Assembly (NCBI GenBank): GCA_026991575.1
Contig: JALXBF010000100.1
Location: 1-56,916 of the forward strand
Source of the DNA: Planctomycetota bacterium
Lineage (GTDB): Bacteria; Planctomycetota; Planctomycetia; JALXBF01
Reading direction: 5' to 3'
Length of the DNA stretch: 56,916 nucleotides
Shown one piece after another: positions 21,112 through 52,642 of the stretch. The notes below the pieces were generated by a model. It saw nothing but the letters and a program-made list of their open reading frames with translations, did no database searches and was not told the origin of the DNA. Within the stretch, counting starts at the first letter, position 1, and each line of letters begins with the position of its first letter. The position numbers were made by a program, and so were the translations under genes.

Positions 21112-23889
21112 TCATGGCTGCGGTTGCGGTGCGGGCGGCTGCGTCTGGGGCAGCTCTGGCATGGGGTCGGGCTGCTCGGGGGCTCCAATCGAGACCGGTC
21201 CTTCAGCTGGCTCCTCCATCGGCAACGGAACCACACCCGTCTCCTGAAGTTCACTGATGTGTTCCAGCACCCACTGGGTACGCTGCGCTTCGATCATCTT
21301 CAGCTGCTCGGCCTCCTCAACACCACGGACGATATGCGGGGTGAGAATGATCAGCAGCTCGCGCTTACGCTGCTGATGCTGCGTGAAGCGGAACAGCTTG
21401 CCCAGGTAGGGCAGGTCGCCCAGCCAGGGAATCTTGCGCACCGTCTCCTGGTCGCGCTTCTGGATTAACCCACCGATGACGATCGTCTGGCCGTCCATGA
21501 CGCTGACGACCGATTCGGCCGTCGTCGTATCGATCCGCGGCGCCTGCTGCGGGATCGTGCCGGTGGGCGTTACGACGGTCTGAACGGTAACCAGCTCCCG
21601 CAACTCGGACACCGTCGGCACCACCCGCATGACGATACGGCCGTCGGGATTGATGATCGGTGTGACCTCAAGGAAGACGCCGATGTCCTGGAACTGAACG
21701 CTGGCGGTGGTCGTCGTCTGCGTCCCAGTTACCTCCGAGACAAACGGAAACTGTTCGCCGACCAGGATACGTGCGCCGGTGCCGTCGAGCGTCATGATCT
21801 GGGGCCGGCTGATTACCTCCAGGCGGCCCTGGCCTTCCAGAGCGCGTAACAGGGCAGCTACCGAGCGTGAGCTGGCGGTTAGCAGCAGGCCCGAGGCGCC
21901 GCCGAGCTCGCTCAGCGAACTGACGCGACCGACGACAAAGTTAGCGAGGGCCTGGCCAGCAACATCCGCGCTGTTGGCCACAGCAGACGCGGAGGCCGAG
22001 TTGCCCAGCGAACCGACCTGCCCGCCCGGCCCGCTGTTGAACAGGAATCCCTGGCCGTCGACGAACACCCCGTTCTCGATCTCACTGCGCTGGAACAACC
22101 GGGTGTCCTGCAGTCCCCACTCGATGCCAAACTCAAACGCGTCCGTGACGTCGAGCTGGGCAATCATGACCTGGATCATCACCTGCGGCTGCAGCGCGTC
22201 CATCTTCTGGATCATCTCCATCACCTCGTCGATGTAACGAGGCGATGCGCTGATGAGCAACATGTTGTTGACCGGCAGCCCCGTGGTAGCGTCCTGAAGT
22301 GGCACCGCCACGACCTCTTGTTCGAGTCGCTGGTACGGGCCGATGAGCTGCTGCTGGCCCACAAGCTGCGCCTGCTGGAATTCGATCTGCCGCTTCAGGT
22401 TGTAGAAGTTGTTCAGAGCGGTGGCCACGTCGGTGGCCCGTACGTTCTTGAGCCGCACGACTCGATTGATCCGCGCCCGCATGTCCACGGTATCCAGCCG
22501 GCGGATGACCGCCTCGATGACATCGACCGCACTCTGTGGCCCCGAGACAAGGAGCGCATTGGTGCGGGCGTCGACCGCGACGCGGACCGCCACCGGGGGG
22601 TTCTCACCCGGAGCCACCGCAATTGGCCGTTGCAGTTGGCCCGCCTGAGCCTGCAAGGCGGCAGCACCACCAAGTGCACCGGCCGAGGCGGCCACCTCGA
22701 TGTCGAACAGCTCTGCCAGCGTCTGCCGCAGATTGGTCGCGTCCGAGTTTTGCAAGAAGAACACCTTGGTGACCGCCTCGATCGTGGGGGGTCGGTCGAG
22801 CTCACGGATGATCGCCGCCAGAAGTTCCATGCTGCTGGACGGGGCAGACACCAGAACACTATTGGTTCGCACTTGCGGCGTGATCCGAATCTCGTCCAGA
22901 ATGCCGGAGTCGATGACCTGCTCCTTGCCGTCCGTTTGGACGAAACGGAGCACCGCGAACCGGCGGGCAATCTGCACCTCGCCGCCCGCGGTCGTCACCG
23001 GCTGGGCTCCGGGCACGGCTGGTGCCGCCGGAGCCGCTGGCGCGGCGGCTGCCTGCAGGGCGCTGTTGAGAATGTCGGCCACTTCCTGGGCCGATGCGTT
23101 CCGCAGCTGGAACACCCGCACCTCGTTGACAACCGGCGCGCGATCCACGTCAAGTCGCTTGATCAGGTCGGCGATCTCCTCCATCAGGTACGGGCTTGCC
23201 TGGACGATCAGCTTATTGGAACGCTCGTCAGCGGTGACCGTTAACCGCTGCGGTCCGGCACCGGCTTGCCCGGTCTGTCCCGGGGCAGCCTGAGCTTGCT
23301 GGCCGTAGAGCTGCTGGATGATGTCTCGGACCTGAGTCGCCGAAGCACGATGTAGCTGGAAGACGCGCACGAACGGTTCGACCGTAGCAGTAACCTCCTC
23401 GATTCGCTGGATCAGCTCAACCAGGTTCTCGATCTCCTCGGGCGACCCGCGCAGGATGATGACACCCGCCTCGTCAATCGCTTCAACTTCGACTCCGGAA
23501 CCGAACGAGGGGGCTTCGGCCTGCGTCCTGCCTTGCAGCGTCGCGCCGGGCCGAGGTCCCGGCGCAGGCTGCTGAGTCTGCTGACCGGCGCCGCCGGCTT
23601 GGCCTGCAGGCTGCTGGGGACCAAGCAGCCCGACACGCGCCACGGCCTTGCGCTCGGGTGCCTGGGCACCGGAGCGAGGCGCGGGGCGGGCGGCCGCGGC
23701 ACGTTGGCTTTGTTGAATCAGGCGGGCAGCACGTTGCGACGGCGCCAGCAGGACCGCGGCTCGCCGCGCAGAACCCGCCCCAGACTGCTCCGCACGCTGC
23801 ATCTGAGCAGCTGCGTCCGTCCATAGACCGGCCAGGAGCGTGAGTCCGACTACGAACTGAGAGCGCCAGCTATACACCATCTGCTCCAC
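21112..23889 (-). CDS. gspD: Type II secretion secretin (outer-membrane pore)
   Basis: A 925-residue secretin that would form the outer-membrane channel of the type II secretion system. The N-terminal signal (residues 1-28) is followed by a Gln/Ala-rich linker to about residue 135, then four or five N1-type modules (VEPFVRVFQLHRASATQVRDI, NEVRVFQLRNASAQEVADIL, VTKVFFLQNSDATNLRQTL, INRVVRLKNVRATDVATAL). Residues about 570-855 form the secretin pore domain, with ARILVGEQFPFVSEV and VMDGQTIVIGGLIQK, ending LIILTPHIVRG. No N0 (STN) domain is seen, and there is no lipobox. It is not in the T2SS operon, which lies 15 kb away. The start is GTG at 23889; an ATG at 23880 is also possible. Confidence 0.93.
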   Translation of the reverse strand: MEQMVYSWRSQFVVGLTLLAGLWTDAAAQMQRAEQSGAGSARRAAVLLAPSQRAARLIQQSQRAAAARPAPRSGAQAPERKAVARVGLLGPQQPAGQAGGAGQQTQQPAPGPRPGATLQGRTQAEAPSFGSGVEVEAIDEAGVIILRGSPEEIENLVELIQRIEEVTATVEPFVRVFQLHRASATQVRDIIQQLYGQQAQAAPGQTGQAGAGPQRLTVTADERSNKLIVQASPYLMEEIADLIKRLDVDRAPVVNEVRVFQLRNASAQEVADILNSALQAAAAPAAPAAPAVPGAQPVTTAGGEVQIARRFAVLRFVQTDGKEQVIDSGILDEIRITPQVRTNSVLVSAPSSSMELLAAIIRELDRPPTIEAVTKVFFLQNSDATNLRQTLAELFDIEVAASAGALGGAAALQAQAGQLQRPIAVAPGENPPVAVRVAVDARTNALLVSGPQSAVDVIEAVIRRLDTVDMRARINRVVRLKNVRATDVATALNNFYNLKRQIEFQQAQLVGQQQLIGPYQRLEQEVVAVPLQDATTGLPVNNMLLISASPRYIDEVMEMIQKMDALQPQVMIQVMIAQLDVTDAFEFGIEWGLQDTRLFQRSEIENGVFVDGQGFLFNSGPGGQVGSLGNSASASAVANSADVAGQALANFVVGRVSSLSELGGASGLLLTASSRSVAALLRALEGQGRLEVISRPQIMTLDGTGARILVGEQFPFVSEVTGTQTTTTASVQFQDIGVFLEVTPIINPDGRIVMRVVPTVSELRELVTVQTVVTPTGTIPQQAPRIDTTTAESVVSVMDGQTIVIGGLIQKRDQETVRKIPWLGDLPYLGKLFRFTQHQQRKRELLIILTPHIVRGVEEAEQLKMIEAQRTQWVLEHISELQETGVVPLPMEEPAEGPVSIGAPEQPDPMPELPQTQPPAPQPQP

Positions 23890-38561: not shown

Positions 38562-41489
38562 TCAGCGGCGGAAGAAACCGCGGCGGCTGCGCGTGAACGG
38601 GGGTCGATCCCGATCGCCTTCACCACGCTCCCGCTCTTCCCGCTCACGCCGCTCGCGCTCCTCGCGCGACCGCTGGCGACGCTCTTCGCTCAGCCCCTGC
38701 AGCCCGAGAAGCGCCTCCTTGATCTGGCTCGGCGTCGCGTTCCGCACGGCAATCACGCGCACGACCTCCTGCTGCTGGGAGGCAAGCGCCGCCTGGTCCA
38801 GCGTGCGCACCAGTTGTTCGATCTCCTCGAACAGCGGTTCCGGACAGGAGACGATGATCGAATTCGACGTCGGATCGACTCCTATAGCCAGTTGCTGGCG
38901 TGGCGTGCCGCCTCGCGACGAACGCGATGAGCGGCTGCCGAAGAAGCCAAAGAAACCGAACCGCGGCCCGGAAGGTTGCGGTGACGTACGTCCGGCGGCC
39001 ATGTACTGGCCATAGACGTCGCGGATCACCTGAGCGATCTCTTCCGCGTCGCCATAGCTAACCGGGATGATCCGCGGCCGGGCGGTCGCCGAATCAAGTG
39101 GCAGATCGGGCCGGTCCAGCACCTGCTCGATGAGCTGCCGCGCCCGTTCAACCTCGGTCATGCTGCCGGTCAGAATGATCGAGTTGGTCCGCGTCTCTGC
39201 CACGATCCGCAGCCTTGGTTCCTCCTCTTCCCGGAAGCCGAAGAAAAAGAACGGGAACACGGGGCGTTGCTCGGTATCGGTCAGCAACTCACGCAGCGTC
39301 TCGGCCACTTGCGTGGCATCGGCGTAGCGCAGCGGAACAACAACGAACTGTGGTCCGGCAGCCTGTTGCGTCAGCGCTTGCAGCACCTGGTACGCCTCCT
39401 CTAGTGCGGCCGGATCATCCGAGGCGATCACGATACCGTTGGGGCCGGGGTAGATGACCACGCTGGGGGCCTGCGTCTGTGGCTGCTGTGTACTGCCCTG
39501 GGAGTCCGCAGATTGCTGTTCCGGAGCCGATTTTGGTACAGGCGGTGTCTTCGTGCGATTGTCTTGCTGCGTGGCGGTCGCTGCGTCCCGGCCGCTGGGC
39601 TGTCGCTGTGACCGTTCGCCCTGGTAGGCGGCGAAGTGGAACCGTGGTGCGGTCTGATGGCGGGCGGCATCGGGAAGCTGCCTGTCGGAGCCTTCCCCGT
39701 TCGGTTGCGTTGTCGGGGGCCGTCGCTCCTCGTCGGGCGGAACGGCCTGTGGGGCACCGAGTCGCGGTCGCCGTCGCTCCGCTGGCATGATCACCTTGAT
39801 CGGGTTGGGGCGACGCCAGACGCGACGGAGTTGTTCGGCAAGCTCGCGCACATCAAGCCCCGGCGTCGGAAGCACCCGAATTCTTTGATCACTGCCGGAC
39901 GTGGCCAGCGCGTGGTATTCGCCTAGGGAGGCGAGCACGCGGCGAATGTCCTCGATCTGAGCCTTCGACGCGCGGACCACGAGCCGGTTGCGTGCCGTGT
40001 CAGCCTGGATGCGCGGCTGACCGGGCCGAATGATGGGACGGCCGCGGAAATCGCGCTGTCCGGAGCTGTACAGTTCATCGAGCAACTCGGCGACGGCGGA
40101 CGCATCCAGCTGCGTAAGCTGAATGACGGCCACCTCTCGCTCGCCCCGCTCGAACTCCTCCACAAGCTGCCGGATCCGGGCCTGCTCGGCCGGCGGGGCA
40201 ATGGCAACGACGGCGTTGTTGGTTTCATCCGCCGAGAAGCGGACGGACGGGTTATTCTCGTAGATCACGCGGAGTGCCTCGACAAGGCTACTGGCATCAC
40301 CGTCGGCCAGTCGGTAGACCCTCATCTGCGGCGTCTGGACCTCCTCGGACAACTGTTCGCGCGGCACGTCCACCATCTCGACAACCTGCGCCACCTGTGC
40401 CAGCTTCTCCGGCGGGGCGGCCACGAAGAGCGTGTTCGTATACTCGTCCACGCTGGTTGCTACCCCCTGAGGCTGCTGGGGGGCGGCCTGCGGCTGTGGT
40501 GGCTGCTGCGGTCCTGGCGGCATCGGCGGACCACCGTCACCGCGGCCGAAGCGTGACGCGAAGAACCGGCGCATCCGCTCACGGAACTCCTCGCGCGGAT
40601 CGCGTCGCCGCTGCGACGCAGTCGCCGTGCTACTGGCCTGGCGCGGCGGTAGGCCGAGCAGATCACGCACGATCGCCTCGACCGTACGAGCGGAAGCGTA
40701 CTTGAGCTGGAAGGCGCGGAACTTCACCTGCACGGAATGCTCGCCAGTAGCCAGCTCCTTCAAGAAGTCGCGGATCGCGCGGGCATGCTGTGCCTGGTCC
40801 GTCACCAACAGCGCGTTGATGCTTTTTAGCGCGGTCACGCGCCCGTATTCGCTCTTCAGGTACTCGATCTCCTTGGCCGCTTCCTCGGCGTCCACCCCCT
40901 CAACCGGCAGGATCACGCTGATAAACTCAGCAGCCCCCCTCTTGTCGAGCTCTTCCACACTAACTCGCGGGATAAGGTCCGCGGGGATACCTTCTTCGGT
41001 GGAGATGACCTTCAGGAAGTTGCCCTTACGCACCAGGTAATAGCCCTGGGGGATGAGAGCCTCGTTGAGGATATCCATTGCTTCGGCCAGAGTGTACTTG
41101 TTCGGGTCACGGATGTAGCTAAACGTGCCTGTCGGCTTGCTCTCCATCTGGAGCGCGAGCCCCGAAACCTCCGCGAACCACCGGAGCACTTGGTCCCAGG
41201 GGGCGGCTACAAACTGGAACTGAATGACCCGCTCGTCCGGCCCAATCGGCCTGGTCCGCCGGGGTGCCGGCGGGATGACGCTCTGCGCCGGCACCTGGCC
41301 GTGCGAAGCGTCCGAGGACGAGGGCCGCTGTTGCCTGGCCTGGTCGTCCGGCTGAGCCGGCTTGGGCTGCGCTGCGCCGGAGACCGCTTCCTTCTGGGGC
41401 GTTTCAGCAGGTGTCTGCCGAAGTGGCGCTTGCGCCCAGAGTCCCGAGCAGAGAAAGGCAACGATGGCACCTAGTGTCACGGCGTTCAT
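38562..41489 (-). CDS. Secretin N-domain repeat protein without pore domain
   Basis: A 975-residue protein ending the T2SS operon. A signal peptide (1-20) is followed by an N0/STN-like domain (VIQFQFVAAPWDQVLRWFAE), then six or seven N1-type secretin modules, for example FRAFQLKYASARTVEAIV, MRVYRLADGDASSLVEALR, VAVIQLTQLDASAVAELL, FVVVPLRYADATQVAETL, RIIPVSYGDAEEIAQVI and VRVIAVRNATPSQIKEALL. Gln/Pro- and Arg-rich linkers separate some. The C-terminal secretin pore domain is absent; the protein ends in an Arg/Glu-rich charged tail. It might form a periplasmic ring or extend the secretin vestibule. The start ATG at 41489 has GGAG 8 bases upstream. Confidence 0.8.
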   Translation of the reverse strand: MNAVTLGAIVAFLCSGLWAQAPLRQTPAETPQKEAVSGAAQPKPAQPDDQARQQRPSSSDASHGQVPAQSVIPPAPRRTRPIGPDERVIQFQFVAAPWDQVLRWFAEVSGLALQMESKPTGTFSYIRDPNKYTLAEAMDILNEALIPQGYYLVRKGNFLKVISTEEGIPADLIPRVSVEELDKRGAAEFISVILPVEGVDAEEAAKEIEYLKSEYGRVTALKSINALLVTDQAQHARAIRDFLKELATGEHSVQVKFRAFQLKYASARTVEAIVRDLLGLPPRQASSTATASQRRRDPREEFRERMRRFFASRFGRGDGGPPMPPGPQQPPQPQAAPQQPQGVATSVDEYTNTLFVAAPPEKLAQVAQVVEMVDVPREQLSEEVQTPQMRVYRLADGDASSLVEALRVIYENNPSVRFSADETNNAVVAIAPPAEQARIRQLVEEFERGEREVAVIQLTQLDASAVAELLDELYSSGQRDFRGRPIIRPGQPRIQADTARNRLVVRASKAQIEDIRRVLASLGEYHALATSGSDQRIRVLPTPGLDVRELAEQLRRVWRRPNPIKVIMPAERRRPRLGAPQAVPPDEERRPPTTQPNGEGSDRQLPDAARHQTAPRFHFAAYQGERSQRQPSGRDAATATQQDNRTKTPPVPKSAPEQQSADSQGSTQQPQTQAPSVVIYPGPNGIVIASDDPAALEEAYQVLQALTQQAAGPQFVVVPLRYADATQVAETLRELLTDTEQRPVFPFFFFGFREEEEPRLRIVAETRTNSIILTGSMTEVERARQLIEQVLDRPDLPLDSATARPRIIPVSYGDAEEIAQVIRDVYGQYMAAGRTSPQPSGPRFGFFGFFGSRSSRSSRGGTPRQQLAIGVDPTSNSIIVSCPEPLFEEIEQLVRTLDQAALASQQQEVVRVIAVRNATPSQIKEALLGLQGLSEERRQRSREERERREREERERGEGDRDRPPFTRSRRGFFRR

Positions 41490-41535
41490 GGTTTGCTCTC
41501 CGGGTGCCGGGGCACCGGACGGGCTGGCCAGCTGT

Positions 41536-42546
41536 TTAATTGTCGTCACTTGCTGCTACCGGTAGCAACCGGGCAGACTCGGCACCTGCCCTATTCTGAC
41601 CAGCCTGCGCGTCCTCTACAGGTCGCATATTCGCCAGGTTCTCTCCGAGCAGGATGCGATAGCGCCGACCGCCACTCTCAAAGGTAACCCCTTCCTCAGC
41701 CACCATGATCACCCGTCCCTGCACGCCGGCCACGTCCAGTGTGTCGCCGGCACGAAGTCGGTACGTTTGATTAGCCAACCGGTCGTACAGCCACGCCTCG
41801 CACTCAGGTCCGATCGCCACGCAGCCAACCAGGTAGACGAATTGACGAGGATCCACCGCTGGCTCTTCCGGTTCGGTCGGCTGCTCAGGCTCGGTTCTCG
41901 GGGGCCGATACGGGGCGAAGATGTTGCGGGAAACAATTCCGGTAAGCAACTCCTCAGGCAGTGGGTTACCTATTGAACCTTCTCCCCCCTCGCGGGGCTC
42001 AATCTCGGCCACCCCCCCTTCTGAACCATCGTTCAGCGATATCGCTTCCACGCGCAGTTCCACATCGAGCAGCTCGCCATCGTCCCGTCTGCGCAGCGAT
42101 AGTTGCCGGATCTGGTGCAGAACGTCCACGCTGTAGAAGTACCTCAGCAGGCGAACCACCGTCTCCAACGACCCGCGTCCCCGTACGGTAAACGGGTAGC
42201 GCACAAGCGTGCTTCCTTGTGGCGCCGGCGGCATCGTGTTCACGGCCGGGTCTTCCAACCCGACTTCGTTAACGAGGCGGAGCAGGAATTCGTGATAGAT
42301 GCTTTGCGCCTTGCGTGGGTCGGACGGCAGGCTGAGTTGCTGCCATTGCTGGAGCTGTTCCTGCTGCTGCAGCACCTGGCGTCGCTGGAGCTTCTTGCGC
42401 CGGATGGTGTTCTGCAGGGCAGCCAGCTGCTCGTTGCGCTCGCGCAGCGGTTGCAGGGCCAACCACTGGACGGCCGCATACAGCAGATAGCCGCCCAGGA
42501 TCAGCAACACAATCGTCAGCAACCGCTGTTCACGGGGGTTCAGCAT
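41536..42546 (-). CDS. PilO/GspM-like protein with GspC/PilP-like C-terminus
   Basis: A 336-residue bitopic membrane protein. Residues 9-28 form one membrane helix (LLTIVLLILGGYLLYAAVQW), followed by a Gln-rich coiled coil (about 30-70) and a PilO/GspM-like ferredoxin fold (about 75-170). From about residue 205 a second domain follows, beginning SRNIFAPYRPP and with strands FVYLVGCVAIG, EAWLYDRL and RLRAGDTLDVAGVQGRV; this resembles the PilP/GspC homology region. A single protein could thus replace GspM and GspC of the classic system. The gene starts 2 bases after the upstream GspL-like gene. Confidence 0.75.
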   Translation of the reverse strand: MLNPREQRLLTIVLLILGGYLLYAAVQWLALQPLRERNEQLAALQNTIRRKKLQRRQVLQQQEQLQQWQQLSLPSDPRKAQSIYHEFLLRLVNEVGLEDPAVNTMPPAPQGSTLVRYPFTVRGRGSLETVVRLLRYFYSVDVLHQIRQLSLRRRDDGELLDVELRVEAISLNDGSEGGVAEIEPREGGEGSIGNPLPEELLTGIVSRNIFAPYRPPRTEPEQPTEPEEPAVDPRQFVYLVGCVAIGPECEAWLYDRLANQTYRLRAGDTLDVAGVQGRVIMVAEEGVTFESGGRRYRILLGENLANMRPVEDAQAGQNRAGAESARLLPVAASDDN

Positions 42547-42548
42547 CG

Positions 42549-44051
42549 TCAGGACTCACGTTGCCGCCGGAACCGGGTTCGCACCGCGTCACGGGGCTGC
42601 GTACCCGGTTGGTCACGAAGCAGGGTCAGCTCACTTTCAAAGTGCCACGGGTAGTCCGTTCGGCGCGGAACACGCTGCACACCTCCCCGAGGTCTTGCCC
42701 GGAACACGTTCCCTTGATTCAGACGGGCATGAAACGCCGCCACTGCCCGCGGCGACTTGGCGTACCCCTCGACCACCATTGTAATCTCGCCTTTCTCCGT
42801 ACGGCGCAGACTAAGCGACTGGAGATACAGCTCGCTGGTGTCGGGGAACTCGGCCGTCAGTTTGGCCAAGATCTCCAGCACGGTTGCCTCGCGCAGCGGC
42901 GCGTTACCGACCCAAGCGGCAACCGCATGGTACTTCTTCGTGAACGGTGCCGCCGACTGTAGAAAGCGATCGAGCTGCCGCTCCTGCGCCCGGTACAGCT
43001 CAAGCTGTGCCTCCAGGCCTCGCAGATTCCACTGGGACCACGCGCCAAGAAGCACCAGCCCCGCCGCCAGCACGGCACCGCCAACCAGCACCGGACGCGG
43101 CACCGGCGTCCGCCGCTTTAGGGGCAGTTTCGGACGGGCCAGGTCGACCGTTTCGGTCGCCTGCCCCCGAAGCAGAGCCGCCAAGGCGGCCCACTCGCCG
43201 GGCGCCTTCGAGACCGTCGCTTCAGCTTCGCTGGCAAGGCGGATGCCGGCAAATGGGTCATAGGAGAACGCCTGCATGGCCAACCGCTGGGCGACCGCCG
43301 CCAGCTCGTCGGCCAGCGCAGCGGGTCCCGGATAGACCAGCGCGAAGCTCACACCGCCGAGCCGCTGTTCTGCAGCGAGCCTCGTGCGCCGCAGCTCGCG
43401 GTGAAGCAACTCCGAGTGGGCTGCTGCACCGGTGAGCCGAACGCCCCGAACCAGAACCGGCTTCCCTTCGTGGAGCACAGCACATTCGCACGCGTCCGGC
43501 AAGGGATGCACGCACAGGATGGTCTTCTCTGGCACGAGTCCGCGGCTGGCCAGCTCGCCAAGTCGCGCCGATAGCAACGGCCGGAAGAAGACATGCGCCA
43601 GTTCCGCTCCGACTCCCTCGGCTATCTCCGTCAACTGGCGCCAGAGCTCATCGTCCGTGTAGACGACCAGTGCCGTGAGCGCCTGGTCCCGAGTGGGTGG
43701 CGTGATGCAGTAGTCCAGGTGGGCCTTTTCAGGAGCGAGACCTAACTCGCGGATTGCCTGAAAGCGCACCAGCCCCGGCAGCTCCTCCTCGGGGGCCGCC
43801 GGCACCGTCAGTTCATGCACGCCAACGGCCGCTCGACCGAGCGTCACAACCAGGCGGGCCAACGGGCGCTCGCCGGCCAGGAGCCGCACGATCCTGGTGG
43901 CTTCCGCTGCCCATCGTTCGGCGTCGGCCGTCACCTCGCCTGCCACAAGCAGTTCCGGCGAGCGGCGTCCGCGCAGCAGCGCGACCCGGAGCCGCTGGCC
44001 GTCCCACTCGATGTAGGCATCCAGCTTCTGAGTCGTCTTGGGCCAGTTCAC
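42549..44051 (-). CDS. gspL: GspL-like assembly protein (PilM + PilN)
   Basis: A 500-residue protein. The N-terminal part (1-290) has an actin-like PilM fold (AYIEWDGQRLRVALLRG and ARLVVTLGRAAVGVHELT). A membrane helix (about 318-337, PVLVGGAVLAAGLVLLGAW) leads to a PilN-like coiled coil and a ferredoxin-like periplasmic domain. This is the layout of GspL, which connects the ATPase GspE to the pseudopilus in the inner membrane. The start ATG has GGGGG within the preceding bases; it lies 18 bases after gspK. Confidence 0.8.
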   Translation of the reverse strand: MNWPKTTQKLDAYIEWDGQRLRVALLRGRRSPELLVAGEVTADAERWAAEATRIVRLLAGERPLARLVVTLGRAAVGVHELTVPAAPEEELPGLVRFQAIRELGLAPEKAHLDYCITPPTRDQALTALVVYTDDELWRQLTEIAEGVGAELAHVFFRPLLSARLGELASRGLVPEKTILCVHPLPDACECAVLHEGKPVLVRGVRLTGAAAHSELLHRELRRTRLAAEQRLGGVSFALVYPGPAALADELAAVAQRLAMQAFSYDPFAGIRLASEAEATVSKAPGEWAALAALLRGQATETVDLARPKLPLKRRTPVPRPVLVGGAVLAAGLVLLGAWSQWNLRGLEAQLELYRAQERQLDRFLQSAAPFTKKYHAVAAWVGNAPLREATVLEILAKLTAEFPDTSELYLQSLSLRRTEKGEITMVVEGYAKSPRAVAAFHARLNQGNVFRARPRGGVQRVPRRTDYPWHFESELTLLRDQPGTQPRDAVRTRFRRQRES

Positions 44052-44069: not shown

Positions 44070-45875
44070 TCACCGCGCTGCAATCGCCCCCGTCTCAACA
44101 AGGCTCCGCGCATCGATTCCGCGGCCGGCCCTCGTCAGGTCCAGCCACCACAGCACGCGCGGCACCGCGCCAGTAACGTCAACGACGGCTTCCACCCTGG
44201 CCTGAGTCGGTTCGCCGGCAAAGAAGCCGATCGCCTGCACGCGATACACGAAGCTCCGCCCGGTCAGGTACCGCTCGTAGCGACGAAACTCTTCGGGAGT
44301 CAGCACACCGGAACTCAGCAGCCACGCCAGCCCATCTTCAGCGGCCGAGCCGCCTAGTTCGGCCCCAGCCGGCCGGCCGGTCAAGATCAGGTCCGCAATC
44401 GATTCGGTCATTCCGGGAACCATCAGGAGGCTAATCCGGCTGGCGGTGTTGACGTTGATCAGACCTTCAAACCGCTTCTGGTCAGCGCGCGTGGTCGTGC
44501 GGTCCAGCAGCACGGGTAACAGTTCCTCGAGTGTCTCGCTGGTCAGCGGGCTTTCCAGACGTTCGGTGCGCGGTTGTCCATCGGGGCCGCGCTCCGCCAG
44601 GCGTGCCTCCACTTCCGCGTCGATCAAGTCCGCAATCGATTCGATCCGGACCTGCGGACCGCCCGAAGCATCCAACCCAGCCAGTTCCTGTACTTCCTCC
44701 TCTGCCTCTTGCTCACCGGTTGCCTCCGCTTCGTTCGTGCCCGGCGCAGCGCGCACACCGCCGCCTGTCGGCCCAGCCTCCCCGCTCGGCTCGCCGGCGT
44801 CACCGGTCGCCGGCGGCTGTTGCTGTTGTCCTGAACCGGCCGGTCCGAACAGCCGATAGGCCACCACAAAGCGTGCAAGCTCTTCGTCGAACTCGGCAAC
44901 AACCAGATCGTACAGGGCCTCCAGATCGTCCTGGTTCAGATCGATCCGTGGCTCGCCGTACGCATCTACATTCGGCTCAGTGGTATACAGCGTTACGAAA
45001 CCGTACAGACCGCGGTCCAGGTAGCCGTCGCCGTCGTCGAACGGGTAACTGGTAGTACCGTCGTTTTCATTCCAATCGAGCACACGGTCAAAGTCGGCAT
45101 CTTCGCCGAACAGTACTCTGGGCGTCACGCCGCGTACCAGCAACAGTTCGCCAATGGACGCGACTGGCCCGTTGCGCGGACTGTATGGCGGGTTGAGGCC
45201 CTCGTAGTAGTCGGCTTCGGCCCCGTCGGGTCGCGGTTCGTCGTCGGGGTCAAGCCAGTCGAAGATGGCATCCGCCACGTCCGGATCGATCTGCTCCAGG
45301 TACAGCAGTGGGTTGTCCGGCCGCTGCTGGTCACCTTCACCCGCACCACTGGTGTTCTCTCCCTCCGGCTCGTCCCCGCCCTGCTGCTGGGATGTGTCCG
45401 CACCGTCCGAGCTGGCGTACCACTGGGTGGCAAGCACGTTAAGGTTCGGTCGAGCGGCTTCGTCCGTGATGCCGTAACGCAACTGGGCAAGACTGGTGCC
45501 ACTTTCGTCGGGAGCCACGCACACGAAGTAGGGTGTGTCTGGCTCGACCACGCTGGTAAACGACAGCGGCATCGGCTCAAACGTGGCCGGGTCGTCCAGG
45601 GAGGCAGTGCCAAGCAGCCCCTGTAGCTTCAGATCAAGCAAGTATGCCTTGACGTACTCGATCGCGGACTCGGCTGCCATGCGGGCCTGCAGTTGCCGAC
45701 CGCGATTCTGGACCGCCCGTGCCTCAGTGCTCATCAGGTAGGACAGCGAGTAGGCGCCGAGCGCGAGCATGGCGATCAGAATCAGGACCGCCATGAGGAT
45801 CAAGCCGCTCCGGGTGCGCTGTCGGGCGCGGCCGTTGGACGGTCGAGTTGTGTTCGCAGTGCCTCTCGAGCTCAC
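44070..45875 (-). CDS. gspK: Minor pseudopilin GspK, long form
   Basis: A 601-residue protein of the GspK family, whose usual length is about 300-350. An N-terminal membrane helix (LILMAVLILIAMLALGAYSLSYLM, about residues 25-48) lacks the classic Glu at +5, as in GspK. Conserved features are GLINVNTASRISLLMVPGMTESIADLIL, a helix-hairpin-helix-like segment in the C-terminal third, and PRIDLNQDDLEALYDL. Acidic and Gly/Gln-rich low-complexity stretches (about residues 170-200 and 345-400) account for the extra length. GspK forms the tip of the pseudopilus with GspI and GspJ. The start is GTG, 5 bases after gspJ. Confidence 0.85.
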   Translation of the reverse strand: MSSRGTANTTRPSNGRARQRTRSGLILMAVLILIAMLALGAYSLSYLMSTEARAVQNRGRQLQARMAAESAIEYVKAYLLDLKLQGLLGTASLDDPATFEPMPLSFTSVVEPDTPYFVCVAPDESGTSLAQLRYGITDEAARPNLNVLATQWYASSDGADTSQQQGGDEPEGENTSGAGEGDQQRPDNPLLYLEQIDPDVADAIFDWLDPDDEPRPDGAEADYYEGLNPPYSPRNGPVASIGELLLVRGVTPRVLFGEDADFDRVLDWNENDGTTSYPFDDGDGYLDRGLYGFVTLYTTEPNVDAYGEPRIDLNQDDLEALYDLVVAEFDEELARFVVAYRLFGPAGSGQQQQPPATGDAGEPSGEAGPTGGGVRAAPGTNEAEATGEQEAEEEVQELAGLDASGGPQVRIESIADLIDAEVEARLAERGPDGQPRTERLESPLTSETLEELLPVLLDRTTTRADQKRFEGLINVNTASRISLLMVPGMTESIADLILTGRPAGAELGGSAAEDGLAWLLSSGVLTPEEFRRYERYLTGRSFVYRVQAIGFFAGEPTQARVEAVVDVTGAVPRVLWWLDLTRAGRGIDARSLVETGAIAAR

Positions 45876-45880
45876 AGTGT

Positions 45881-46813
45881 TCAGAAACCCGCACCGGCGG
45901 TGCTGAGTGCGTCGAGCAGTTCGGCGTCTGCTACCGGCACGGTAATCACCTTGCGAAACACGTCACTGCCGGCCGGGATGCCGTATCGCTGGGCAAGCGG
46001 GCTGAGCTGATCGTCGACCCGCCCGATCTCCGCAGGCGGCTGAACCCCGAGCACCACCTCAACGGCCAGCGGCGGCGGGCCAGGCTCCGTGTCACCGCCC
46101 CACTCCGTCAGCCACTCGTAGCCGTCCGTGTAGCTGAACTGCACGAAGGTGACGTGGTCCAGCAGCCGGCGGTAATGCGGGTAAGCAGCCGGGTCTAGGG
46201 GCAGTTCGTCCGCCAGCGTCTCGAAGCCGGCCGGTACAACGCCACGCCACAGCGCGTAGCCCGTGGCCCCGTCCTGGTAGGTCACCGGCTCGATAAAGTA
46301 CGTGACGCGGTACACCGCAGGCCGCGGCAGAAGCATGCCCTGACTGGCCAAGGCATCGGCCAGATCGAGATCGGAGGGTAGAAGGGTACGGTACAGGACG
46401 AGCGTGTCCTCGGCCCCCCAGAGACCGTACGGCACGCCAGCGCTCGTGGTGCTATCGTCCGACCCGCTCGCCCCTTCCCCACCGGAGTCAAGCTGATCGC
46501 CATTTGCTCCCCCTTGGAAGCTGTCTGACAGCACTGCCCCAATCTGCTCCTCAAGTCCAGGCGGTGGGGCGATGATGTGCTTGACGTCGTCTTCGATGAG
46601 CTGCAGAACGGCCGCGACGCGTTGGCTGTAGCCTGTTTCCACTGGGCCGCGATCCGCCATGCGCAGGTGGATTCGGGCTGCGACGTAGACGGTCATGATG
46701 AGGGCGCTGCCAATGGCCAGCGCCAGGATCAGTTCCAACAACGTGAACCCCGCGTGCCGCGACCAGCCACGGTCGAGCAGCTTGCGTGATCGGAGTCCGT
46801 ACCGCCCTCTCAT
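45881..46813 (-). CDS. gspJ: Minor pseudopilin GspJ
   Basis: A 310-residue pilin-like protein with a basic leader and prepilin peptidase site followed by the hydrophobic helix GFTLLELILALAIGSALIM, with the conserved Glu at position 5 of the mature part. The C-terminal part is rich in beta-strands and includes the YFIEP and VTFVQFSYTDGYEW segments seen in GspJ-like proteins. It would be part of the tip complex with GspI and GspK. It overlaps gspI by 4 bases (ATGA). Confidence 0.85.
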   Translation of the reverse strand: MRGRYGLRSRKLLDRGWSRHAGFTLLELILALAIGSALIMTVYVAARIHLRMADRGPVETGYSQRVAAVLQLIEDDVKHIIAPPPGLEEQIGAVLSDSFQGGANGDQLDSGGEGASGSDDSTTSAGVPYGLWGAEDTLVLYRTLLPSDLDLADALASQGMLLPRPAVYRVTYFIEPVTYQDGATGYALWRGVVPAGFETLADELPLDPAAYPHYRRLLDHVTFVQFSYTDGYEWLTEWGGDTEPGPPPLAVEVVLGVQPPAEIGRVDDQLSPLAQRYGIPAGSDVFRKVITVPVADAELLDALSTAGAGF

Positions 46814-47268
46814 CGCCCCTCCCCCTCTGTAAACCCATTGGACTCGTCAGCCGTGGTCGACTCGGTGACAGAGGCCAGGTAGTCGGGGTCCAACACGTAG
46901 CGGACCAGCTCAAAGGCGACCGGCTCGCGCAGCTGAGCCAGTCGGCCGGTAGCCGACGGAGTGACGCGGACGCGTACCAGCTTCAAGCCGCTGATCGGTC
47001 CGTCGGCTACATCGAGTTCCCACTGGAAATCCGGGTCCTGCTCGAATGGCTGCGCCCCGACCACATCCAGCGGCACGGCGCCGGCAACTACCTCGGCCAT
47101 CTTGCTGCCTGCCAGCTCGATGGCACGGGCGTGATAGCGGGCGTACAGCGCACTGCGGGCCGACAGCTCGACCAGCTTGCTGACCACGGCTAGGGCACCG
47201 ACCAGGATGGCCAGTGCCAGGATCACCTCCAGCAGTGTGAATGCCCGCCGCGTCAGCTGCCGCCTCAT
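46810..47268 (-). CDS. gspI: Minor pseudopilin GspI
   Basis: A 152-residue pseudopilin. The leader MRRQLTRRAFTLLEVILAL contains the prepilin cleavage region with Phe at the start of the mature helix and Glu at position 5; the helix is followed by a ARAIELAGSKMAEVV segment typical of GspI. The ATG at 47268 is chosen because GGAGGG lies 5 bases upstream and the start overlaps the end of gspH by 4 bases (ATGA); an in-frame GTG at 47286 is an alternative. Confidence 0.88.
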   Translation of the reverse strand: MRRQLTRRAFTLLEVILALAILVGALAVVSKLVELSARSALYARYHARAIELAGSKMAEVVAGAVPLDVVGAQPFEQDPDFQWELDVADGPISGLKLVRVRVTPSATGRLAQLREPVAFELVRYVLDPDYLASVTESTTADESNGFTEGEGR

Positions 47269-47999
47269 TGCACCCTCCGGTCCCACCGCGGTAGCCTGCG
47301 TTGCACGGACGGTCCGGTGCCCTGCGCAGGTGCCACGGTCATGGCGTCAGAGAGAACCACCTCGCCGGTCAGTTCGTCGATCGTCACCACCACTGCCAGG
47401 TTATTCGGTCCAACCACGGTGATCACATCCCCGGTGGTCGTGCCATCGGGAAAGAGGAGCACGGCCGCGGTGCCGGAGGTTGGCAAGCCGCTCTGGCGGA
47501 GCGCTTCGGCTACGAGCGGCGAACCGCTCTGGGCGATCAGGTCCTCTTCGGGAGTCAGCAGCTGCAGCAACGGATCGCTGCTTGTCGGGGTGGAACCGGT
47601 GCCGGCAGCCTGCTGTGCCAGGCCGTTCCCGGAGGGCGTTCCGTGCACGAGTCGAAAGCCATCTTCGAACTGGAACATGTGGATGTCATACGGGTTGGCC
47701 CGGTACAGCTCGCTCAGTGTCGATTGGCCCACGGTGGCACTCAGCGCATCGAGCAGCGACTTACAGGCGGCGAACCCGTGCTGCGGACTGCCCGGCACGT
47801 ACAGGAACGCATAGGGCACGCCGTGCTCGACCGCGCGGCTGCGTGCTTCGCGAATGCGTGCCCTCAATCGGTTGGCGGCCTGCTTCACCTCGTACGTGGC
47901 AAACGCCGCGTTCATCGCGGGCACGGCTAGAGCGGCCAGGATGCCCACGAGCACCAGCACGAGAATGATGTCCAGTAAGGTGAACGCTCGCCGGCTCAT
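47265..47999 (-). CDS. gspH: Pseudopilin, GspH-like
   Basis: A 244-residue protein beginning MSRRAFTLLDIILVLVLVG, a pilin-like prepilin site with Asp in place of the usual Glu at position 5, followed by a helix rich in Arg (VKQAANRLRARIREARSRAV) typical of GspH/FimT. The C-terminal domain is a beta-rich part with LLFPDGTTTGDVITV. It would be a minor pseudopilin. Asp instead of Glu5 is uncommon but conservative. The open frame extends to 48038, but that part is not pilin-like. Confidence 0.8.
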   Translation of the reverse strand: MSRRAFTLLDIILVLVLVGILAALAVPAMNAAFATYEVKQAANRLRARIREARSRAVEHGVPYAFLYVPGSPQHGFAACKSLLDALSATVGQSTLSELYRANPYDIHMFQFEDGFRLVHGTPSGNGLAQQAAGTGSTPTSSDPLLQLLTPEEDLIAQSGSPLVAEALRQSGLPTSGTAAVLLFPDGTTTGDVITVVGPNNLAVVVTIDELTGEVVLSDAMTVAPAQGTGPSVQRRLPRWDRRVQ

Positions 48000-48039
48000 C
48001 GGCTCACGTCCCACTACGCACGGCCGCTTGGCATACAAG

Positions 48040-48117: not shown

Positions 48118-48549
48118 TTACTCGCTCTGCCAGTTGGTAATGTCGTCCTCGGTACCCGACTGCCGATCGGGGCCTGCCGACCAGATATCGGGCTTGTCCT
48201 GGTTGTGCTGGCCGGGGTACTGGTAGAAGTAAGGCGTGCCCCAGGGGTCGACCAGGGCTTTGTTGGTCTCCAGGTAGGGGCCAGCCCAGTTCTTCGGGAT
48301 CGGCTCTGTGGTTGGCTGCGTGATCAGCGCCTGCAGGCCCTGTTCGGTAGTGGGATACGTTCCGGCGTTTAGACGGTAGTAGTCCAGTGCACTTTCGAGC
48401 AGTTCGATCTGTGCCTTTGCCGTGTTGACCTCCTGGTGCCGCTGGATGCCGAAGAACTGAGGCGCGACGATCCCGGCCAGCAGGCCGATGATCACCAGCA
48501 CCAGCAGCACTTCCAGCAGCGTGAACGCTCGACGATCGCGCCGCGCCAT
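48118..48549 (-). CDS. gspG: Major pseudopilin GspG
   Basis: The 143-residue main pseudopilin. The leader MARRDRRAFTLLEVLLVLV and Glu5 are intact, and the C-terminal GspG region (GLQALITQP, DPWGTPYFYQYPG and IWSAGPDRQSGTEDDITNW) that binds calcium is well conserved. The ATG at 48549 has GGAGG 9 bases upstream. The gene starts 164 bases after gspF, leaving room for its own promoter (a TAATAC sequence lies near 48608 on the minus strand, without a clear -35). Confidence 0.95.
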   Translation of the reverse strand: MARRDRRAFTLLEVLLVLVIIGLLAGIVAPQFFGIQRHQEVNTAKAQIELLESALDYYRLNAGTYPTTEQGLQALITQPTTEPIPKNWAGPYLETNKALVDPWGTPYFYQYPGQHNQDKPDIWSAGPDRQSGTEDDITNWQSE

Positions 48550-48713
48550 GGTGCTTTTCCTCCGAAACGCGTCACCACGCCCATCTAGCCCAGACCGCTC
48601 TAGAGTATTAGAGACCGCATCGCCGTTGGCCGTTCCACGCACGGCGGCGGGGCGCCGTCGGTGGCAGTTCGGTCCTGTTAGTAGACAGCGCCGTTGACCG
48701 CTGCGGCGTCTGG

Positions 48714-49913
48714 CTACAGCGCCGTGCCCATCTTCATCACCGGCAATAGCAGGGCGGCGACCACTAGCAGCGTCACGCCGGCCATAACCAGCAGCAGGAC
48801 CGGCTCCAGCATGCGCACCAGCAGCTCGACCTGGCGCGTCAGCCTGCGTTCGGTGGTATCGGCCACGCGGATGAGAACATTCTCCAGGTTGTTGGACTCT
48901 TCACCAACGGCGATCATCTCGACGACATCGGCCGGGAACACGCCGGCGGCTTTCAAGGGGGCAGAGAGCGTAGCGCCCGCAGAGACGCTGTCGGCAGCCC
49001 GGTCGATGGCCGTCGCCAGGAGGCGATTGCCGACCGAGTCGCGTGCGATGCGCAGGGCGGTCAGGATCGGCACGCCGTTGGCCAGCATCGTGCCCAGGAT
49101 GCGACTGAAACGGGCCACGGCCCAGCCGGTCCAGATCGGCCCAAGAACGGGCAGGCGGAGCTTGACGCGATCCCACCAGGCCCGCCCCTCGTCACTGCGC
49201 ACGACCACGTACCCGGCCACAACCACGACGGCGAACGCCGCGACTAACCAGAGCCAGTGCTCTTTGATACCGTTGCTGACCGCTAGCAGGGTCTCGGTCA
49301 GCACGGGCAACTGGCCTCGTTCGCGCATGCGCGCGAAGATCAGCTCAAAACGAGGCACGAAGAAGGTCATCATCACGGTGAGCACGACGCTAGTGACGGC
49401 CAGCAGGAAGGCGGGGTAAGTGAGGGCTCCGAGGATTCTGGCCTTAATCTCTTCCTGGTGCTCGGTGAAGTCCGCGATCCTGCGGAGCACATCCTCCAGG
49501 AAGCCGCCCTCCTGACCGGCTCGCACCATGCTCACCGCCAGCTCCGAAAACACGCGCGGATGGCGGGCCATGGCCTCGGCCAACGACATCCCTTCGGCAA
49601 CATCGGCCCGCAATTGTTCGATGACGCTCGCCAGGGCGGCGTGCGATGTCTGACCTTCCAGCACTTCCAGGGCACGCAGCAGCGGCACGCCGGCCTGGAG
49701 CAGATCTGCCAACGCGCCGTAGAACCAGGCGACGTGGCGCGCCCGGACACGACCGCCCGAAACCGGACGGGCTGTTCGCGTTTCGCGCACCGAGACGACG
49801 AACAATCCTTGCTCCGCCAGTCTGTGCAGCAGCTCCCTCTGGCTGGCCGCCTCGAGCACGCCGCGCACCAGCACGCCATTTCGGTTTCGGGCGGTGTATT
49901 CGAAGGATCCCAT
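48714..49913 (-). CDS. gspF: Type II secretion inner-membrane protein GspF
   Basis: A 399-residue polytopic protein of the GspF/PilC family, with the two repeated T2SSF domains (about 60-190 and 265-390). Conserved segments are FYGALADLLQAGVPLLRALEVL and AVARFSRILGTMLANGVPIL, and three predicted membrane helices. It anchors the GspE ATPase in the inner membrane. It lies between the LTxxQ protein and gspG. Confidence 0.94.
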   Translation of the reverse strand: MGSFEYTARNRNGVLVRGVLEAASQRELLHRLAEQGLFVVSVRETRTARPVSGGRVRARHVAWFYGALADLLQAGVPLLRALEVLEGQTSHAALASVIEQLRADVAEGMSLAEAMARHPRVFSELAVSMVRAGQEGGFLEDVLRRIADFTEHQEEIKARILGALTYPAFLLAVTSVVLTVMMTFFVPRFELIFARMRERGQLPVLTETLLAVSNGIKEHWLWLVAAFAVVVVAGYVVVRSDEGRAWWDRVKLRLPVLGPIWTGWAVARFSRILGTMLANGVPILTALRIARDSVGNRLLATAIDRAADSVSAGATLSAPLKAAGVFPADVVEMIAVGEESNNLENVLIRVADTTERRLTRQVELLVRMLEPVLLLVMAGVTLLVVAALLLPVMKMGTAL

Positions 49914-49932: not shown

Positions 49933-50730
49933 CTAGACCTGTGCGAACAGCCGAAGCGCTCCGACAGCGGCCGCGTCACGTTCCGGACGGCGCTGCTGCC
50001 GAGGGGGTCGCGCGCCGGGTCCGCGGAACCGGCGGCCTCCGGGAAAGCCGAACGGCCGCATTAGTTCTTCGACGTTAAACGGCGCGCCGAGCATCTTCTT
50101 CCACGTTTCCTTTTGCTCGTCAGTTAGGATCGCCATGACCTTCGAGATCGCCTCCTCACGCGCCTTGCGCATGCGCTCACGCAGACCGCGGAAGAACTCG
50201 CGTCGCTGCTCGGGGCTCATCTCGCGCATCCGCCGGAAGTCGATCCTTGTCTCCTGGACGATCTGCTCGATCTTTTCCTTCTGCTCATCGGTTAGCCCGA
50301 GCTTCTTGGCAACGTCCGGTCGCAGGAACACTCCTGCGCCGGCGAAGCGGAGTGTCGCCTGGAGTTGGATCTGGTTGAGCCGCTCGGCCTGCTCAGGCTC
50401 AAGGATCGCGTCGACCATCTCCTCGGCCGTGCGGAAAATCTTCTGCATTTCGGCGGCCCGCTGTTCACGGTCCACGTCCCGCAGCGATCGCATCTTCTCG
50501 CGTAGCTCTTCGCCCACGTCGCGGAGCAGTTCCTTCTGCTCGTCGGTCAGCTTCAACTCCTTCTGCACCGCTTCGGCCCGCAGCAGCATCAGCTTGCCAC
50601 CGCGGAAGAACATGCCGCCGCCGAATCGGCCGGGGAATCCACCGGGGCGGCCCCGCTGAGCCCAGGCTGGCAGTGCCAGCACTACGGCCAGGAGACCCGC
50701 CAAGCAAGCCGTTCTGTGTAAAGCACGCAT
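49933..50730 (-). CDS. Exported Spy/CpxP-like LTxxQ-motif protein
   Basis: A 265-residue exported protein: signal peptide (1-25, AGLLAVVLALPAWAQ), then a helical, highly charged region with three LTDEQKE motifs (about residues 60, 147 and 203), the signature of the LTxxQ family (Spy, CpxP), and an Arg/Gly/Pro-rich tail. The helical part may bind unfolded proteins or metal. The start has GGAGG 6 bases upstream. It is placed between gspE and gspF, which suggests a role for a periplasmic chaperone-like protein in the same secretion pathway. Confidence 0.8.
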   Translation of the reverse strand: MRALHRTACLAGLLAVVLALPAWAQRGRPGGFPGRFGGGMFFRGGKLMLLRAEAVQKELKLTDEQKELLRDVGEELREKMRSLRDVDREQRAAEMQKIFRTAEEMVDAILEPEQAERLNQIQLQATLRFAGAGVFLRPDVAKKLGLTDEQKEKIEQIVQETRIDFRRMREMSPEQRREFFRGLRERMRKAREEAISKVMAILTDEQKETWKKMLGAPFNVEELMRPFGFPGGRRFRGPGARPPRQQRRPERDAAAVGALRLFAQV

Positions 50731-50792: not shown

Positions 50793-52469
50793 CTACACCA
50801 CGGCAACACGCAGAACTTCTTCGACCGTCGTGATACCGTTGCGCACCTTGATCCAGCCGTCTTCACGCAGGGTGCGCATACCATGGGACCGCGCCGTCTT
50901 GAAGATCACAGCAGCGCTGGCCCGTTCCACCGTCAATTCGCGGATCTCGTCATCCGTCACCAACAGCTCGAAGATGCCAACTCGGCCGCGATAGCCCGTG
51001 TTCCGGCACTCCCGGCATCCCACGGGACGATACAACTGCAACCCTGGCTCGTACGGGAAATCCTCGGGCAGGTCTTTTGGATCCGGTTCGTACGGTTCCT
51101 TGCAGGCAGCACACAGCACGCGGACCAGCCGCTGGGCCATCACCGCCTCGACCGTGCTGGACACCAGGTACGGCTCGACCCCCATGTCCACGAGCCGCAC
51201 GAACGCGCTTGCCGCATCGTTGGTGTGCAACGTGCTGAAGACAAGGTGTCCAGTTAACGATGCCTGGATCGCGATCTCGGCGGTTTCCAGATCCCGGATC
51301 TCGCCGACAAGGATCACGTCCGGGTCGTGCCGGAGAATGCTGCGCAGGCCGGCGGCGAAGGTAAGCCCGATCTTGGCATGAACCTGAATCTGGTTCAGCC
51401 CTTCCAGGTGGTACTCGACCGGGTCCTCAATCGTGATGATCTTGATCGCTTCGCTCCGGATGTCGCGCAGCGCGCTGTAGAGGGTAGTCGTCTTACCGCT
51501 ACCCGTCGGGCCGGTGACCAGCAGAATGCCATGCGGCCGCTGGATCAACTTGCGAAAAGCCTCGTAGGTGTCCGGCTCCATACCCAACCGCTGCAGGTCG
51601 AACTCCATGCCGCCCTTATCCAGGATCCGCAGCACTAAGCCTTCGCCGTGGATCATCGGGATGACGGAGACGCGCACGTCGATGTCGCGGCCCTTGACCC
51701 GCAGCTTGATCCGGCCGTCCTGCGGGAGCCGTTTTTCGGCAATATTCAGGCGAGCCATGATCTTCAAACGGCTGATGATCGCGCTGCGAAACCGGTCGAT
51801 CTCCGGCGGCACGGGCTGCCTGTGCAGCACGCCGTCGATGCGGTAGCGGAGCTTCAGCCCGCTTTCCTGCGACTCGATGTGCACGTCGCTCGCCCGCTGC
51901 TCGATCGCCTCCAGCAAGAACTCATTGACCAACCGCACCACAGACGGCTGCTTCGCTTCTTCGTCCAGCTCCGCCTCGAGCTCTTCGGGCTCTTCCAGGA
52001 ACTCCAACTCGTGACGATCGGCCACCAGTTCACTGACCGTGCCGCCGCCCACCCCGAAGTGCTGCTTGATGAGCTGCTCGATCTCTGCCCTGCGTGCCAC
52101 GACCGGCTCGACATGCAAGCCGGTCTTCGCCTCGACCTCGTCCAGGGCGTACAGGTCGAGCGGGTTGCTGGTCGCCACGATGAGCGTACCGTCGCGACGT
52201 TCGATCGGCATGATCGTGTGTTTAAAGACAAGCCGGGCCGGCACCAGGGTGGCGACCTCCCTGGGCACGGCGTAATCATGCAGGTCCCGGATCGGACAGC
52301 CGGTCTGTTCGGCCAACAGCTCCAGAACCTCACGCTCTTCGAGCAGCCCCTCTTCGATGCCGATTTCCAGCAGGCCTCGGTCCGGGTCCGCAGCGGCCTT
52401 GCGTCTCAGTTCGGCCAGCTGGGCTTCGCTCAGCAGACCATGGCGTAGCAGAAGTGCACCAAGTTCCAT
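50793..52469 (-). CDS. gspE: Type II secretion ATPase GspE
   Basis: A 558-residue hexameric ATPase that powers pseudopilus assembly at the inner membrane. The N-terminal domain (about 1-150) precedes the C-terminal ATPase domain with GPTGSGKTT (Walker A, about 319-327), an LRHDPDVILVGEIRD Asp/Walker B box (about 380-395), and the zinc tetracysteine (CAAC near 450 and CREC near 484). The ATG at 52469 is the likely start; GGAGG lies about 12 bases upstream. It opens the T2SS operon. Confidence 0.95.
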   Translation of the reverse strand: MELGALLLRHGLLSEAQLAELRRKAAADPDRGLLEIGIEEGLLEEREVLELLAEQTGCPIRDLHDYAVPREVATLVPARLVFKHTIMPIERRDGTLIVATSNPLDLYALDEVEAKTGLHVEPVVARRAEIEQLIKQHFGVGGGTVSELVADRHELEFLEEPEELEAELDEEAKQPSVVRLVNEFLLEAIEQRASDVHIESQESGLKLRYRIDGVLHRQPVPPEIDRFRSAIISRLKIMARLNIAEKRLPQDGRIKLRVKGRDIDVRVSVIPMIHGEGLVLRILDKGGMEFDLQRLGMEPDTYEAFRKLIQRPHGILLVTGPTGSGKTTTLYSALRDIRSEAIKIITIEDPVEYHLEGLNQIQVHAKIGLTFAAGLRSILRHDPDVILVGEIRDLETAEIAIQASLTGHLVFSTLHTNDAASAFVRLVDMGVEPYLVSSTVEAVMAQRLVRVLCAACKEPYEPDPKDLPEDFPYEPGLQLYRPVGCRECRNTGYRGRVGIFELLVTDDEIRELTVERASAAVIFKTARSHGMRTLREDGWIKVRNGITTVEEVLRVAVV

Positions 52470-52642
52470 ACGTGCCCAAGACCTCCGCCGATGTTGCGCG
52501 AGAGCCAAATTCGCAGAGGTGGCCTCCGCCGGTCCAGAACCACTCTAGTAGTCTAAAGCGTCACGCCTGCGGTGGTTGGGCTCCGGAAAAATCCGCGTGC
52601 AATCTCCCCGCCTTTGGCGCTGTCCACTACTGAGGGCGGGCA

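Follow-up and report, generated by a model that had tools for sequence, protein, structure and literature searches.

Two minus-strand genes in the window, by which we mean the whole stretch of 56,916 nucleotides of a planctomycete contig that was analyzed, probably encode the two chains of a single GspD, whose periplasmic stack would be very long and whose chains are predicted to join at module 8. We refer to the N-domain protein (975/995 aa) as DN and to the pore protein (925 aa) as DC. The initial annotation, made from the sequence alone, had proposed that every part of a GspD is present once the two proteins are combined, the periplasmic portion being unusually long, and this proposal was supported by fusions of the same order in related genomes, by co-occurrence with the type II secretion system (T2SS), and by conserved gene pairs that flank the T2SS operon. 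Both open reading frames (ORFs) are intact (Table 1), and the DN frame stays open from a GTG at 41549 (38562-41549 minus, 995 aa). Each protein has an apparent signal peptide, as judged by eye. DN is the last gene of an operon with the order E-LTXXQ-F-G-H-I-J-K-L-M, at the end of which it had already been placed, and several intact genes lie between DN and DC. The intergenic distance, which had been given as about 15 kb, was measured as 14.7 kb. DC adjoins unrelated genes away from the operon, so that co-transcription of DN and DC is unlikely.

Table 1. Features of the window and the other secretin genes of the same genome
Feature	Position	Strand	Basis or remark
GspE ATPase (MshEN + T2SSE)	50793..52508	minus	profile match
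LTXXQ/Spy-like protein	49933..50730	minus	profile match; between gspE and gspF
GspF	48714..49913	minus	profile match
GspG	48118..48642	minus	profile match
GspH	47265..48038	minus	profile match
GspI	46810..47286	minus	profile match
GspJ	45881..46813	minus	profile match
GspK	44070..45875	minus	profile match
GspL-like (PilN/GspL_C, weak)	42549..44051	minus	profile match
GspM with C-terminal extension	41536..42546	minus	profile match; extension GspC HR-like by eye only
DN gene, proposed N-domain half of composite GspD	38562..41489	minus	975 aa from ATG at 41489
N0 domain of DN (aa ~105-184 of 995-aa ORF)	40998..41237	minus	lineage N0 HMM, 5e-37 (not independent, the window sequence being among the seeds of the HMM)
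N1-type modules 1-7 of DN	38787..40925	minus	Pfam, N1-module HMM and AlphaFold model
Half-module 8a of DN (beta-alpha, aa 927-954)	38688..38771	minus	N1 HMM positions 2-26 of 75
DC gene, proposed pore half of composite GspD	21112..23889	minus	925 aa
Half-module 8b of DC (beta-beta-alpha, aa 128-164)	23398..23508	minus	N1 HMM positions 36-74; Pfam Secretin_N positions 26-64
Four complete N1-type modules of DC	22195..23370	minus	profile matches
Secretin pore domain (PF00263) of DC	21325..21843	minus	2.7e-50 in the second search
Tad-type secretin			620 aa; beside RcpC/CpaB
PilQ-like secretin			538 aa; after PilB/PilC-like pair (type IV pilus locus)
Stand-alone ORF with divergent C-terminal secretin domain	L151:7878-13196	plus	1,773 aa; contig C43 of this genome

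Domain content of the two proteins

Pfam searches revealed six Secretin_N stretches in DN (1.8e-70) and no match to the Secretin pore, even at E-values as high as 1, in agreement with the earlier view of DN as a protein without a pore, while DC contains five Secretin_N stretches and a Secretin domain (2.9e-49). In an AlphaFold (AF2) model of DN built with 15 relatives, the N0 domain is among the best-predicted parts (pLDDT about 90). Residues 84-164 of the model (104-184 of the 995-aa form) superimposed on the isolated N0 domain of ETEC GspD (4jtm) with Z 11.1 and 2.1 Å, covering 80/81 residues, which confirmed the N0-like domain noticed initially; the fit to GspD in the GspC-GspD complex (3oss) gave Z 10.0 and 1.8 Å over 77 residues. 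DC did not match the lineage N0 HMM, and the TIGR02517 GspD profile was covered in its early part by DN and from position 161 to the end by DC, consistent with the annotation of DC as lacking N0. Against the NCBIfam GspD equivalog cut-off of 351 bits, DC scored 338 and DN 208, each matching part of the model, so that in annotation such T2SS loci could be miscalled, that is, scored without a complete gspD.

We counted the N1-type modules with an HMM of 75 positions, built from modules of the DN/DC family. DN contains seven complete modules, of which two match weakly or are broken by an insert; module 5 carries a disordered insert of ~110 aa between alpha-1 and beta-2. The six or seven modules annotated in DN therefore became seven complete modules and one half. 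Taken together, DN and DC comprise about 12 modules, seven in DN, four in DC, and one divided between both, and the composite contains a pore (from DC), a GspD-type N0 (from DN), and N1-type domains between them. These parts are distributed over two genes in the window and lie on a single chain in Gemmataceae-type relatives.

The genome, a draft of 191 contigs (4.96 Mb, 97.8% complete), contains four secretin domains, that of DC and three others, none of which is a GspD equivalog. The initial statement that DC is the only protein with a pore thus holds within the window and not for the genome. DC is the best GspD match of the genome, with 338 bits vs 148 for the PilQ-like secretin, 124 for the Tad-type secretin, and 64 for the 1,773-aa ORF. 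These three were considered as alternative GspD proteins and rejected on gene context and profile scores, and no complete GspD was found elsewhere in the draft genome. We also rejected DC as the PilQ of a type IV pilus, because its best profile is GspD and a separate PilQ-like secretin of 538 aa exists. Thus, none of the three findings named at the outset as speaking against a divided GspD (a pore in DN, an N0 in DC, or a complete gspD elsewhere) was obtained. The surroundings of the 1,773-aa ORF show no obvious genes of a T2SS or a pilus. A further ORF of the same genome, of 528 aa (L018, C133:2857-3021), matches Secretin_N once, weakly, and lacks a pore.

Complementary halves of module 8

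As read from profile matches, the cut between DN and DC lies within module 8, of which the two proteins carry complementary halves, a point that the initial annotation had missed. The last N1 HMM match of DN, near its C-terminus, is EVVRVIAVRNATPSQIKEALLGLQG, corresponding to one strand and one helix (E 0.11, weak alone), and is followed by a charged disordered tail. The first N1 HMM match of DC is VEVEAIDEAGVIILRGSPEEIENLVELIQRIE, corresponding to two strands and a helix (E 4e-4, weak alone), and is followed by four complete modules and then the pore. An HMM of the first half gave 35.4 bits for half-module 8a of DN, the window sequence being one of the model's own rows. Among DN homologues whose C-terminus was seen and intact, 24/25 end in the first half of module 8, with E-values down to 6e-8. 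The same HMM did not detect a hidden first half in the N-terminal 128 residues of DC (-4.6 bits), nor a first half in the DC of genome G009. The window and G009 are the only places where a DC without any first half was found, and a hybrid module formed in trans, as predicted here, is therefore best argued for these two. Several Pirellulales-type loci (L090, L116) have a DC with its own first half of module 8.

We then modeled the junction in a fused protein (locus L132, 455 residues) with AlphaFold, using 26 rows. When DN, DC, and the fused junctions were aligned jointly with MAFFT, the DC rows fell on module 7; hence DC rows were excluded, and the rows used were fused and DN only. The second half of the junction model was informed by five fused rows only. 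In the model, the first half forms a strand (104-109) and a helix (115-126), a disordered stretch spans 129-301, and the second half forms strands 306-311 and 316-321 and a helix 324-340. Residues 99-343 aligned as a unit to individual domains of the KH-like type (7a67, 71 residues at 2.3 Å; 8tuk, 67 residues at 2.3 Å), and residues 1-338 aligned to two successive GspD N-domains (3ezj, N1-N2) over 121 residues at 5.1 Å, the aligner reporting end points only. The confidence of the model is middling (pLDDT about 66-80 at the halves, pTM 0.32). The model supports the view that the halves may pack into one KH-like hybrid module within the fused chain. In the DN-only AlphaFold model, half 8a has the helix without the strand, and its confidence is below that of the full modules. 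Within the fold, the disordered insert of module 5 occupies the position that the linker has between the two halves, suggesting that a long loop is tolerated at this site in the family.

Association with the T2SS operon and fused forms in relatives

We surveyed 59 genomes of the class. DN was found in 42/59 genomes, and strong GspK (gspK) matches were found in exactly the same 42. Among 80 T2SS loci that were located by GspK, independently of DN, both genes were seen in the order DN before gspE and DC after gspM in 12. The same arrangement was evident from coordinates in G007, G012, G032, G044, G046, G048, G050, and G056. Thus the search for such gene pairs in other planctomycete T2SS loci, a check suggested at the outset, revealed conserved pairs that flank the same operon. 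DN ends the operon in the window, and DC ends it in most relatives. In G009, the operon ends with DN and DC side by side; the place of DN in the window resembles that in G009, with DC having moved 14.7 kb away.

No gspC was recognised. The resemblance of the GspM-like extension to a GspC HR domain was noticed by eye and was not confirmed by a profile search of the protein against the PDB, which gave cadherin-like and designed propeller matches only and no GspC HR match. The extension has a conserved FxP motif and may replace GspC. In Planctomycetaceae, the GspM-like protein seemingly has extra cadherin/Ig-like repeats. Several relatives have a DN in which a counterpart of the LTXXQ/Spy-like protein is fused ahead of N0 (L051 15625-19392, phmmer 1e-15), which links the Spy-like domain to the DN-type secretin.

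In 11/59 genomes, all of one family (G003, G008, G013, G021, G025, G029, G033, G037, G041, G049, and G053), a DN match and a secretin domain occur in one frame of 2,135-2,442 aa. Further fused loci have the same order (L061-L063, L081, L132), and the named records of the fused kind are mostly from Gemmataceae. In the Gemmataceae-type fused protein, of about 2,000-2,400 aa, the halves flank a disordered Gly/Pro-rich linker of ~200 aa, and in split genomes the gene ends are positioned in the region of this linker. In a tree of N0 domains (100/99, from only 91 columns), the N0 of the fused proteins groups with that of DN and apart from that of the Planctomycetaceae DC, which has its own N0 in a separately rooted clade. 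Much longer forms also exist. A second T2SS in G009 (L152:4748-14554 +) has a fused single-chain GspD of 3,269 aa with N0, 31 N1-type matches, and a pore, and G028 has a DN of 2,701 aa (L154:1774-9876 -) with 31 N1-type matches, no pore, and a first-half module at its C-terminus. A third protein of ~500 aa, with N0 and N1 modules and without a pore, adjoins gspF in G009 and G014 (L049:17263-18780 (-) and L050:12759-14249 (-)).

From these observations we infer the physical assembly of the two chains, as well as its stoichiometry and length, along the following lines. DN would be exported to the periplasm, where its N0 would face the inner-membrane platform and its seven modules would build the lower, membrane-proximal rings. 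DC would provide the outer-membrane pore and four upper rings. Beta-1/alpha-1 of 8a (DN) and beta-2/beta-3/alpha-2 of 8b (DC) would assemble as a hybrid module that couples the chains. The resulting channel of about 12 modules, vs the usual three N1-type domains, would be a tube several times the normal N-module length, and may suit a wide planctomycete periplasm. Where DC keeps its own N0 or first half, it could work without DN, which in such cases may be an accessory ring of the stack; a duplication with complementary losses afterwards would account for both forms.

The main alternative, which we consider unlikely, is close to the separate ring or gating subunit mentioned in the initial annotation: DN would form a ring of its own in the periplasm, or a docking subunit, beneath a self-sufficient DC, having arisen by duplication of a full-length GspD and loss of the pore, with 8a as a cut relic that has no function as a half. 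It would fit the Planctomycetaceae DC with an N0 of a different clade, the Pirellulales-type DC proteins with their own first half, and the encoding of DN far from DC; moreover, DN alone has N0 and rings, like the isolated N-modules reported to self-assemble (PMC10550240). However, a half module retained in all but one of the 25 DN C-termini would be odd for a relic, Gemmataceae-type genomes make a single chain, and the DC proteins of the window and G009 have neither N0 nor a first half. The possibility that DN and DC are unrelated, DC being the secretin of another system (e.g. a pilus) and DN an orphan N-domain protein, is strongly disfavoured and very improbable, given the fusions and the co-occurrence. 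The distance between the genes, the use of secretin domains by several machines, and the score of DC below the equivalog cut-off would agree with it, but DC is by far the best GspD match in the genome, fusions and operon positions in relatives link both proteins to GspE-M, and the other secretins are in T4P or Tad loci or alone. An artefact, in which misassembly or a frameshift broke one fused gene of this draft genome of many contigs, is refuted by the conserved split in many other genomes (adjacent genes in G009), and intact genes between the two and an apparent signal peptide on each also speak against it.

Comparison with known secretins

A secretin is usually portrayed as one polypeptide that starts with N0 and ends with the pore, and a 15:12 mismatch is known between the secretin pore and the inner-membrane platform. 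If the composite GspD is real, a natural two-chain GspD would be a ready-made tool that separates the ring stack from the pore, the 15:12 mismatch would be testable with chains whose copy numbers can be determined separately, and the family would show how a trans-periplasmic channel is lengthened module by module. An N0 at the N-terminus is stated to be present in every secretin studied to date (PMC10550240). In the open-licence literature searched, we found no description of a split bacterial GspD or of a planctomycete GspD.

Planctomycetes have a large, variable periplasm, and crateriform complexes or pits are reported to hold the cell membrane near the wall (PMC5394234). It is conceivable, although we would stop short of calling it probable, that a two-chain secretin with a hybrid domain, its stack evolving in length (about 12 modules here, about 31 in relatives), serves as a ruler for this variable periplasm, and it could be the membrane-spanning complex beneath the crateriform pits. 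The literature searched gave no molecular identity for the crateriform structures, for which the DN/DC complex would be a concrete, testable candidate.

Like the canonical GspD/XcpD/PulD, the DN/DC pair has N0, N1-type modules, and a secretin domain, all homologous and encoded with GspE-M, but the canonical GspD is one chain with three N1-type domains, whereas DN/DC has two chains and about 12 modules and is cut in module 8. The PilQ of Thermus thermophilus has six stacked rings (N0-N5), the extra rings being said to span a wide periplasm (PMC5745081); it is likewise a secretin lengthened by extra N-rings, but as a single chain with six rings that serves a type IV pilus. The Gemmataceae-type fused GspD and the 3,269-aa GspD of G009 are clear relatives with the same modules in the same order, unsplit and with up to 31 N1-type matches. 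The closest precedent for the split is found in mitochondria. In the mitochondrial T2SS of jakobids, heteroloboseans, and others, GspD is split into a pore protein and the Secretin_N proteins GspDN1-GspDN3, two of the GspDN proteins represent the two halves, N- and C-terminal, of a single N-domain, and contact between GspD and GspDN1 by yeast two-hybrid has been reported (PMC8134430). In both cases, N-domain pieces, half domains included, are apart from the pore. We found no evidence for common descent of the two splits, and the likeness lies in how each works: the mitochondrial pieces are small, single-domain proteins of a eukaryotic organelle and include no N0, whereas DN and DC are large, multi-module bacterial proteins with a single-chain form in their relatives.
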